Of a stretch of 64,000 bases of DNA, positions 5,997 through 62,437 are shown piece by piece. The position numbers were made by a program, and so were the translations under genes. The stretch is from Acidobacteriota bacterium (GTDB lineage: Bacteria > Acidobacteriota > Terriglobia > Terriglobales > SCQP01), in contig DAIDIE010000037.1 in the NCBI GenBank assembly GCA_027459505.1, forward strand, positions 1 through 64,000. The letters are read 5' to 3'. The stretch's first letter is position 1; each line of letters begins with the position of its first letter. Below the pieces are notes generated by a model, which was not told the DNA's origin, ran no database searches, and worked only from the letters and a program-made list of their open reading frames with translations.

Positions 5997-6096
5997 CGAG
6001 CCAGGGCCGAGTCGAACTGCTTTCGAGCTCGAAAGCGCAGGCCGAAGTGACAGCCAAAGTCCGGGGTCGCCGTTTAGGTACCGCACCGCTGGCGAC
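5997..6096 (+). repeat. Dispersed repeat family B, copy 1
   Basis: Begins CGAGCCAGGGCCGAGTCGA and ends near CCGCACCGCTGGCGAC. It matches 42099-42190 and 61828-61926, in the same orientation. This copy holds a perfect 16-nt palindrome CTTTCGAGCTCGAAAG, which is less perfect in the other copies. It is followed after 7 nt by repeat C copy 1. Confidence 0.85.
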
Positions 6097-6103
6097 TATT
6101 AAC

Positions 6104-6206
6104 GCGCGGCCACCATCCGTGAGCTTCGGCCCCACCCCACGCCGCGCCGCGCGGCGTGGGGTGGGGCCGGGACACCGAAGCGGGTGGAATAAAATCGGCC
6201 CGTCCC
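6104..6206 (+). repeat. Dispersed palindromic repeat family C, copy 1
   Basis: Shares the edges CCATCCGTGAGCTTCGGC and CCGAAGC-GGTGGAATAAAA with 62049-62148 and, in short form, 57106-57151. In the middle is a perfect 19-bp stem (6128-6146 with 6150-6168, 3-nt loop). It stands directly after the stop codon of the GH51 gene as read on the minus strand, where a TTTTATTCC tract precedes the stem, so it may end or protect that transcript. Confidence 0.85.
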
Positions 6207-6213
6207 GCCGCCC

Positions 6214-8151
6214 CTATTTGGAATAGAGGCGCAGGACGGTGATGGAGTCAGCCGGCAAGGTATAGGTGAATTGCGGCTTTACGCCGGTTACCCGGCTGGT
6301 TTTTGGCACGACGTTGGTGCGCTCGGTAATCGAGTTGGTAGCGTCGGGGGCGGCGGCCATGGTGATGGCTTCGCCATCCCGGCGCAAATGCAGCGCGCCC
6401 GTGAGACGCAGTTGCACGGATTCGGCCTGTGCCTGAGGGTTAACGATCTTTACGAAGATCGTGCCCGTCCGGCTGTCACGGGTCACCGAGGCGTGCAGAT
6501 CAGGGTTGTTCAGTTGGGTCCCGAGTAACTGGTTCCCGAAGTTGGTGCTGAACATCTTGATCGCGTAATAACTGGGCGAGCCGAAAACATGCAGGGCGTC
6601 GTAGCCGATCAGGTTGGGGCGCCATTGCCGCCCGCCGGGGTTCACGTTGACCAGCAGAGGCGCGTAGGCATTCATCTTCACCAGATCGGAGTTGCGCTCC
6701 ATCCCGGTCATCCAGGAGGCGTCGGCGAGAGCCGCCTTCATGTCGGGAGTGGGCGGCTGCTTGCGGGAACGCTTGTCCCAGGGCGGGTACGAAGTTTCAT
6801 AGGCGGCCCATTCACCGACGAAGATCTTCGGGCCCTTGCGATCGTAGTGATCGAAGTGCGCGGTATCGCTGAGAAACTTCGATGACGCTTCGTAGTAATG
6901 CTCGTCGGTCATGGCGGGGCGGATGCCCGCCGGAAACTTTCCGTGCTGATCGGTCCAGATACAGATCAGGGAAGGATAGCGGGCCTTGATGGCGCGATAG
7001 AACTGGGTGAAACGGCCCGGATAGCTGCCGGAGTGATCAAACTCGTCTTCATTGCCGATTTCGACGTAATGCAGCGGGAACGGCCGCGGGTGCCCATCTT
7101 TGGCGCGCTGCGCGCCCCATTTACTGGTGACGGGACCAGTGACGTACTCGATTTCATCCAGCGCATCCTGCACGTAGGGTTGCAGGGCCGGACCAGCGGA
7201 GACGTGTTCGCCGCCCAGTGAGTATCCGGCGTAGACGGCCAGGACCGGCTCGGCATGCATGTTTTCACACCATTGCAGATATTCCAGCAGTCCCAGTCCA
7301 TCGCTGGAGCGATAGCCCCAGGGGCCCTGGTGGCCGGGGCGGTCGATCAGGGGGCCGATCGTCTTCTTCCATTCGAAGCGCGTGGCGATGGTGTTGCCCT
7401 CGAGGTAGTTGCCGCCCGGCAGACGCAGGAACTTGGGATGCATGTCCACCAGCATCTGCATCAGATCGGGGCGGAAGCCGTTGGGCTGGTTATGCCAGGT
7501 GGGAGGGAACAGGGAGACCAGTCCGAACCAGACCTTGCCTGGTTTGGAGAGCGCTAGCACGTAGCGGGCGTGGGCGGTTTCCTGCACGTCGCCGGTCTTT
7601 AAAACCAGGTGATATTGCTTCCAATGGGAGGTCAGGCCGGCAACCTTACCAGAGGCGTACACCTTGCCGTCGTCCCCTTGAATGGAGACCAGCACCGGTC
7701 CTTGGAAACCGGCGGCGGCCTTGGCGTAAAACGAGGCGCGATATTGGGTATGCGGATATACGGGAATGCCCCAGTAGCCATCGTTGGCGACGCCTGCGGG
7801 ATGCGCCGCGGAGGCCTGCGAAACCTCCAGCCGCAAGCTGGTCGGCAGCGCTTTGCTCAGGGGCTGTGCCGGGTCGAGATTCATTTGCGCGCTGGCGCCA
7901 GCGGGCTGCAGCAGCGACCAATGGACGGGGCTGCTGGCGTTATCCAGGAAGGCGCGGTTCTGCACCAGCTCGGCGTAAAGGCCGCCATCGTAGCTGTGGT
8001 TAATCTCCTCCGTCATCAAGCCGTAGAGAATGGGGCTGGCTTGCCCGGTGGCTTTGCCGGCGTTGATGGTGAGGACCGCGGGGGAGGATTGGGCGAGAAG
8101 CGCCGCGGAGAAGACAAGCAAGCAAGCGGTGCAACGAAGCAGAGGTTTCAT
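6214..8151 (-). CDS. Secreted alpha-L-arabinofuranosidase, GH51
   Basis: The product is 645 residues and releases arabinose from arabinoxylan or arabinan. A signal peptide covers about 1-20 (ending LLAQSS). Residues about 100-225 form a jelly-roll like a carbohydrate-binding module (YRASFYAKA, WKQYHLVLKT). The (beta/alpha)8 catalytic domain follows, with the acid/base in YVEIGNEDEF (Glu368) and the nucleophile in VGEWAA (Glu447), both intact. A C-terminal beta domain ends at TYTLPADSITVLRLYSK, as usual in GH51. The esterase downstream on the same strand and the GH10 xylanase elsewhere fit an arabinoxylan toolkit. The gap to the esterase is filled by repeats B and C. Confidence 0.93.
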   Translation of the reverse strand: MKPLLRCTACLLVFSAALLAQSSPAVLTINAGKATGQASPILYGLMTEEINHSYDGGLYAELVQNRAFLDNASSPVHWSLLQPAGASAQMNLDPAQPLSKALPTSLRLEVSQASAAHPAGVANDGYWGIPVYPHTQYRASFYAKAAAGFQGPVLVSIQGDDGKVYASGKVAGLTSHWKQYHLVLKTGDVQETAHARYVLALSKPGKVWFGLVSLFPPTWHNQPNGFRPDLMQMLVDMHPKFLRLPGGNYLEGNTIATRFEWKKTIGPLIDRPGHQGPWGYRSSDGLGLLEYLQWCENMHAEPVLAVYAGYSLGGEHVSAGPALQPYVQDALDEIEYVTGPVTSKWGAQRAKDGHPRPFPLHYVEIGNEDEFDHSGSYPGRFTQFYRAIKARYPSLICIWTDQHGKFPAGIRPAMTDEHYYEASSKFLSDTAHFDHYDRKGPKIFVGEWAAYETSYPPWDKRSRKQPPTPDMKAALADASWMTGMERNSDLVKMNAYAPLLVNVNPGGRQWRPNLIGYDALHVFGSPSYYAIKMFSTNFGNQLLGTQLNNPDLHASVTRDSRTGTIFVKIVNPQAQAESVQLRLTGALHLRRDGEAITMAAAPDATNSITERTNVVPKTSRVTGVKPQFTYTLPADSITVLRLYSK

Positions 8152-42045: not shown

Positions 42046-42098
42046 GGAAGCGCAAGGAGTTGCGGGTTGGCCCGCATGGCTCGGGGAATTCCTCGCGA
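42046..42098. other. Short spacer before repeat B copy 2
   Basis: GGAAGCGCAAGGAGTTGCGGGTTGG-type spacer; nothing recognised. Together with 42191-42428 it belongs to a 383-nt gene-free stretch before the MFS gene. Confidence 0.3.
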
Positions 42099-42190
42099 TC
42101 CAGGGCCGAGTCGAACTGCTTTCGAGTTCGAGATCGCAGGCCGAAGTGATAGCTAAGGTCCGGGGTTGCCGTTGGGTCCCGCACCGCTCG
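42099..42190 (+). repeat. Dispersed repeat family B, copy 2 (without C)
   Basis: Begins TCCAGGGCCGAGTCGAACTG and ends GGTCCCGCACCGCTCG. It is nearly the same as copies at 5997 and 61828, but no C element follows. Copies 1 and 2 share TCGAACTGCTTTCGAG, while copies 2 and 3 share TTCGAGTTCGAGATCGCA. Confidence 0.85.
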
Positions 42191-61827: not shown

Positions 61828-61926
61828 GCGAGCCAGGGCCGAGTCGATCTGATTTCGAGTTCGAGATCGCACGCCGAAGTCGTAGCCAAGGTCCGGGGTT
61901 GCCGTTAGATCCCGCACCGCTCGCGA
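61828..61926 (+). repeat. Dispersed repeat family B, copy 3
   Basis: Begins GCGAGCCAGGGCCGAGTCGAT and ends CCCGCACCGCTCGCGA. It matches copies 1 and 2. Its end is interrupted by the inverted-repeat element at 61931; copy 1 continues directly into repeat C at this point. Confidence 0.85.
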
Positions 61927-61930
61927 CGCC

Positions 61931-62038
61931 CGAGTTCGTCACCAGGCGGGTCGTTGAGACGGAGAAGAGTGCGGCTTTTCTCAACAGGCAAAGCCGCATG
62001 CCGCTAGATCGCAGAAGCGCTGTTGTGTGACGAACTCG
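61931..62038. mobile_element. MITE-like element with 12-nt terminal inverted repeats
   Basis: CGAGTTCGTCAC (61931-61942) and GTGACGAACTCG (62027-62038) are perfect inverted repeats. Inside, TGCGGCTTT and AAAGCCGCA form a second perfect 9-bp hairpin. It separates repeats B and C, which are adjacent in the copy at 5997-6206, so it looks like an insertion of 108 nt. It codes no protein. A clear target duplication is not seen. Confidence 0.65.
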
Positions 62039-62048
62039 CGCTAGTAAA

Positions 62049-62148
62049 GCGCGGCCACCATCCGTGAGCTTCGGCCGGGGCCCCAAGCCGCGCCGCGCGG
62101 CGGGGGCTGGGGCCGGACGCCGAAGCGGTGGAATAAAAGCGGCCGTGC
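62049..62148 (+). repeat. Dispersed palindromic repeat family C, copy 3
   Basis: GCGCGGCCACCATCCGTGAG, then CTTCGG..., a GC-rich inner stem less perfect than in copy 1, then GCCGAAGCGGTGGAATAAAA and GCGGCCGTGCCG. It lies between the double-TonB gene and the HlyD gene. Confidence 0.83.
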
Positions 62149-62437
62149 CGCATTCGTATCCCCTTCCGCAGCTCCTCCTCGCAACAGATATCCGTGAATT
62201 TAATTTCCGCCGTCTGCAACCTCGCCTGCCGCAATTTCGTATACTCGGCAGAGCCGTGGCGCTGAGAAATGGCTTCAGCAACTCGGACGTCAGTGGAAGC
62301 GCAGCTTGCGCCGGACACGGCAATTGGCCAAGCGTCACTGAAACTGCCCCCCGTGCCCGGACATACTAAAGCGTTAACCGCGTTGCCCCCTTTGCCATAG
62401 CCGGCTGCCGGAATAACTGGGTGGCGCAAAAACCACT
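62149..62437. other. Intergenic before HlyD
   Basis: About 289 nt without a credible gene. The promoter of the HlyD/ABC operon must lie here or upstream of it, but I find no clear box. Confidence 0.4.

Follow-up and report, generated by a model that had tools for sequence, protein, structure and literature searches.

In the window (the whole 64,000-nt stretch of DNA that was analysed), two repeat parts, B and C, adjoin each other at 5997-6210 but at 61829-62151 have a further segment, M, between them, which raises the question of whether M was inserted into an existing repeat or is an old part of it that other copies have lost. The sequence-only reading had recognized the two arrangements and proposed a nested insertion of a 108-nt MITE-like element at GCGA/CTA (a slash marks a junction throughout), with the 5997 copy as its empty control. 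We queried the window's own genome (4.06 Mb in 45 contigs) with the 61829-62151 copy as a whole and then with its parts B, M and C separately, and found copies of one dispersed repeat on most contigs. Merging the DNA around the matches and mapping the modules gave at least 78 repeat clusters, a lower bound because each search scored the best 40 candidates; for B these were the best 40 of 182 loose candidates. Alignment of 55 well-covered copies showed that B and C form a core of ~175 nt, from (A)CGAGCCAGGGCCGAGTCGAAC to AAAAGCGGCCGTGCCGC, which carries two optional hairpin segments, M (114 nt) and H (~40 nt). The 'composite' B-C is a single element, and its parts in the window are as follows.

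61829..62151, + strand: full composite copy (core, M and H) from one of the 78 or more clusters.
61829..61927, + strand: core 5' part, B (alignment of 55 copies).
61928..62041, + strand: M, inserted 114-nt segment (exact filled/empty comparison, 32 versus 23 copies).
61928..61942, + strand: left terminal inverted repeat of M, GCCCGAGTTCGTCAC.
61970..61999, + strand: central hairpin of M, TGCGGCTTTTC...GCAAAGCCGCA, the part kept in other genomes of the family.
62027..62041, + strand: right terminal inverted repeat of M, GTGACGAACTCGCGC (consensus GTGACGAACTCGGGC; one mismatch in this copy).
62042..62151, + strand: core 3' part, C, here bearing H (alignment of 55 copies).
62073..62126, + strand: H, optional GC-rich palindrome, between GGCCGG direct repeats at 62073-62078 and 62121-62126.
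62139..62151, - strand: terminator-like small hairpin at the core 3' end (GCGGC ACG GCCGC TTTTATT); 1 found versus 1.4 expected by chance.
5997..6210, + strand: M-free, H-bearing copy, with the empty M site between 6096 and 6097 (GGCGAC/TATT).
42096..42188, + strand: B-only copy, truncated at its 3' end.

All four combinations of the optional segments occurred among the 55 copies (both in 22, M without H in 10, H without M in 11 and neither in 12), and the presence of one did not predict that of the other (Fisher p 0.16). H resembles a slippage unit, being bordered by GGCCGG on either side and present in tandem in four copies. H-like palindromes (CCCCAAGCCGCG...CTTGGGG) were also seen free in sister genera, in G001 (L131 1420-1540, in tandem), G004, G006 and G009. 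No target duplication was seen in the flanks of the core. The 5' flanks share little apart from the six bases next to the core, which favour C-N-N-N-A-C (e.g. C8:34516 and C45:87275) and may reflect a target preference of the core. The 5997 copy sits just past the stop codon of a minus-strand ORF (6214-8151). At 115500-115575 of contig C1 (L028), two core 5' ends meet head to head in a REPIN-like, near-perfect 25-bp inverted repeat, AACGAGCCAGGGCCGAGTC...GACTCGGCCCTGGCTCGTT. Self-insertion was considered for a tandem pair of 5' ends in contig C34, an explanation dropped when their junctions misfitted a clean insertion.

Comparison of the 32 filled with the 23 empty copies set the limits of M exactly: the segment is 114 nt long rather than 108 nt, and its site reads GGCGAC/TAGT rather than GCGA/CTA. 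Barring point changes, all 32 filled copies had the same junctions, GGCGAC/GCCC on the left and GGGC/TAGT on the right, and the site was intact in the 23 M-free copies, reading GGCGACTAGT in most of them and differing by point changes in the others. The terminal inverted repeats of the family consensus are 15 nt long (GCCCGAGTTCGTCAC and GTGACGAACTCGGGC); the perfect 12-nt ends first described are 12 perfect pairs in the window copy, which has one mismatch to the longer consensus. The central hairpin of M lies at 61970-61999. At least three copies contain a further 16-nt insert inside M. Since 0.42 perfect 12-nt inverted repeats spaced 80-130 nt apart are expected per 64 kb by chance (first-order Markov), the pair of ends alone is weak evidence; the recurrence of M at one junction in 32 copies is decisive evidence that the segment is real. 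With 15-nt ends on 114 nt, M has the build of a MITE (terminal inverted repeats of ~10-30 bp on 70-300 nt). The idea that its hairpin is a terminator was dropped, as the T-run lies within the 5' arm and a terminator scan found none in M.

How, then, did M come to lie in the core? We consider it probable that a MITE-like element with a TA target inserted into the core once, then spread with it and is now mainly its passenger. M would be a non-autonomous element of a small class in this bacterial family, placed by an inverted-repeat-recognizing, TA-targeting transposase at a TA in one pre-existing core copy. This M-bearing copy and its M-free relatives would then both have multiplied, and recombination between copies may have scattered M and H over the core lineages. 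M adjoins the TA of the empty site, and no direct repeat beyond one C flanks it; the left TA is missing in every copy, leaving the TA target readable from the right side alone. As all M copies share this junction without the left TA, one founding insertion is suggested. Alternatively, M could have inserted repeatedly at one core site, either a hot spot or a specifically recognized sequence. Every M does lie at one site, as does a variant of it, M', in another host repeat, and sublineages of M occur in differing core and H backgrounds. However, descent accounts for the common junction more easily than 32 separate, identical insertions would, and free copies in related genomes lie in varied sequence, making repeated insertion an improbable account.

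The reverse history also has to be weighed, in which M would be an original stem-loop of the repeat, lost many times through replication slippage across the hairpin. A majority of copies bear M (32/55); with a divergence of 12.5% against 9.7%, M has changed no less than the core, so it is not a young segment; deletion can remove a hairpin entire when its base is fully paired; and the behaviour of H offers a precedent within the same repeat. The sequence-only reading had named as its refutation that all other B-C copies contain the segment, which is not the case, given that 23 of 55 are M-free. Against loss stand the homologues in sister genus g3: at least 40 near-full-length ones in G003, 184-188 nt long, have the same 3' end as the core and a similar 5' part, with neither M nor H, and full-length matches in G002 of the same genus are alike and have the same length. 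On this outgroup evidence, cores without M are ancestral, barring loss of M from every copy in the g3 lineage. The exactness of the empty sites, the single C as flanking direct repeat, and the M-like elements found outside the B-C repeat and in repeat D likewise speak against an ancestral M, which we judge unlikely. Among the copies in the window's own genome the core tree was nearly star-like; M changed state 24 times on it compared with 26.7 for shuffled labels, both M and H being about as scattered as such labels, and M divergence did not track core divergence (Mantel p 0.32). Since no branch of this tree was well supported, gain, loss and exchange are not orderable within the genome, and ordering M gain and loss by the core tree was given up for its low resolution.

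It could also be argued that the repeat in its entirety forms a structured RNA or DNA unit, with M and H as optional functional helices rather than passengers. Paired core segments are kept between genera (TCGAAC/GTTCGA versus TCGGAC/GTCCGA, slashes here separating the arms), the 3' end of the core is terminator-like, and M and H each fold independently. Against this, a search of Rfam gave no match for the repeat, covariation inside M was weak (2 of 29 pairs), and the copy number and unrelated flanks resemble mobile DNA; we therefore find a structured unit very improbable. On the minus strand, the core 3' end GCGGC-NCG-GCCGC-TTTTA was seen in most copies and is conserved between genera, including in G003.

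The sequence-only reading had suggested looking for the segment elsewhere in the genome. Many copies were found, all of them within host repeats: in the window's own genome M occurred only in the B-C repeat and M' only in repeat D. M', which has GCCCTGGGTTCGTCAC ends, sits in this unrelated repeat at GGCA/TAG in three arrays, which also contain D units without M'. Like M, it adjoins the TA of its empty site, and its target duplication is at most CA. Repeat D is large, CGGCGCCGGGCAAGACTAGCCCGGCATAGCG...TATGCCGGGT with a GGCGGGACGGGG segment, and its arrays are at L190, L256 and L240 (contigs C10, C2 and C9), where single units carry M'.

M-like elements share a central hairpin, TGCGGCTTTTC…GAAAAGCCGCA. 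A pattern built from this hairpin alone, GCGGCTTTTC(3-8)GAAAAGCCGC, matched 5 of the 14 genomes of the family, exact matching meaning that diverged M-like elements in relatives were missed; in a slightly longer form it was nearly absent outside the family, occurring twice in one of 284 other genomes of the order. M-like elements in G009, G010, G011 and G013 lie outside any B-C repeat, in varied sequence, so that the class, like MITEs, has several copies at unrelated sites. The relatives of M are ~104-124 nt long with ends of 12-19 nt, and many, including most of those that are intact, have TA at both ends, as read from filled sites alone. At 17 of 22 loci, which include two M' copies from the window's own genome, the hairpin had symmetrically placed inverted repeats on its two sides at 40-52 nt (mostly 42-50), compared with 0 of 80 random positions put through the same test. 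The terminal inverted repeats themselves were unrelated in sequence and fell into at least five sets, three of them within G010: TAGAGCA in G009, G010 and G013, CTAGAACCTGTCTCATAAT and TATTGAGTCTCGCAGA in G010, TAGTGTAGTGCGTCAG in G011, and GCCCGAGTTCGTCAC (M) and GCCCTGGGTTCGTCAC (M') in the window's own genome. Tentatively, M may belong to a class of miniature elements whose ends are exchangeable around a constant centre, in which a ~27-nt hairpin is fixed 42-50 nt from the termini; we regard this as possible but less likely than not. If it is true, selection would act on the centre. Should the ends suit different transposases, the centre would have changed its mover several times; an alternative to such switching is that template switching rewrites the two arms together. 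Text searches of open-licence papers gave no description of a class whose ends differ around a constant centre.

Taken together, these results partly support the sequence-only reading: a MITE-like nested insertion fits the filled and empty sites, the sister-genus homologues without M and the free relatives, but a single event at 61828 does not. Because M occupies the same site in 32 copies, its insertion would have taken place in an earlier ancestor of many of them, and the copies at 5997 and 61828 are not a before-and-after pair. The 5997 copy is indeed empty, but 23 copies share this state, so that it is no unique control, and many substitutions besides M separate it from the 61828 copy.

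A transposase with matching ends, which had also been proposed as a check, was not found: the 45-contig assembly of this genome, searched with one mismatch allowed, contained no IS-sized pair of CCYGRGTTCGTCAC ends. M-like ends in this genome occurred only as M and M' pairs ~98 nt apart or as single remnants. M is called MITE-like, and is not filed under an IS family, because no IS-sized pair of matching ends was found. Its TA context may hint at an IS630-type (TA-target) origin, but is suggestive only. Two Y1 transposase genes are present, and no repeat copies were found near either of them. Around one, a REP-type gene at L231, lie inverted hairpins CCCACTCAAC...GTTGAGTGGG (1251-1278 and 2056-2083) and also AGTTGCCAGTTG-type tandem repeats. 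Movement of the repeat by the genome's own Y1/RAYT proteins was dropped as an explanation, as the Y1 flanks carry unrelated hairpins. GTAG or CGTC tags, as in REP/REPIN elements, were absent from the ends of M, H and the core. No match to the repeat 5' end or to the hairpin was found in viral contigs, nor to the composite or a G010 M-like element in plasmids. The only genome-collection match to the M ends, in Natrialba, was taken as chance, since it lies in apparent coding sequence and lacks the central hairpin.

The locus offers a clear natural record of how small repeats grow, with a hairpin element settling in a bigger repeat and then riding along, and with filled and empty sites kept within one genome; through the relatives with a constant centre, how non-autonomous elements keep matching ends while changing them becomes testable. 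Among known systems, RUP of Streptococcus pneumoniae, a dispersed, non-coding MITE of ~107 nt with a TA target that is thought to be moved by IS630-Spn1 (PMC2229807), is like M in size, inverted-repeat ends, TA target, dispersal and lack of coding capacity. For M, however, no matching ends at IS distance were found in the 45-contig assembly, and we found no description for RUP of the constant centre and changing ends seen here. REP dimers lie inside long palindromes in A. variabilis (GTAG-15) and H. neapolitanus (CGTC-1) (PMC3733652), and M shares with them a conserved small hairpin in the middle of a palindrome, a palindrome within a palindrome; unlike in those, no GTAG or CGTC tag marks a hairpin base in M, and the outer arms of its class come in at least five unrelated sequences. 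The two Y1 genes, one of them flanked by hairpin inverted repeats, recall RAYT or TIR-associated tyrosine transposases, although the flanking CCCACTCAAC...GTTGAGTGGG bears no relation to B, M, C or H. In Neisseria, the NEMIS (Correia) elements are small non-coding repeats with two forms (107 and 155 bp) that differ by one internal segment (PMC2229807), as the core does with and without M; here, however, the internal segment is an element in its own right, with inverted-repeat ends and related copies elsewhere, and H, the other optional segment, comes and goes independently of M. BOX of S. pneumoniae (boxA-boxB-boxC) is modular, with optional middle modules that fold largely alone, and such repeats have been found nested within one another (PMC3049150). 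The present repeat is BOX-like in having fixed outer and optional inner modules, a likeness of build alone and not of homology, whereas boxB is a tandem-array module that is not described in PMC3049150 as having its own inverted-repeat ends. Composite repeats as such are thus already known from BOX and NEMIS, and the less usual part of the present system is the class whose ends vary around a constant centre.
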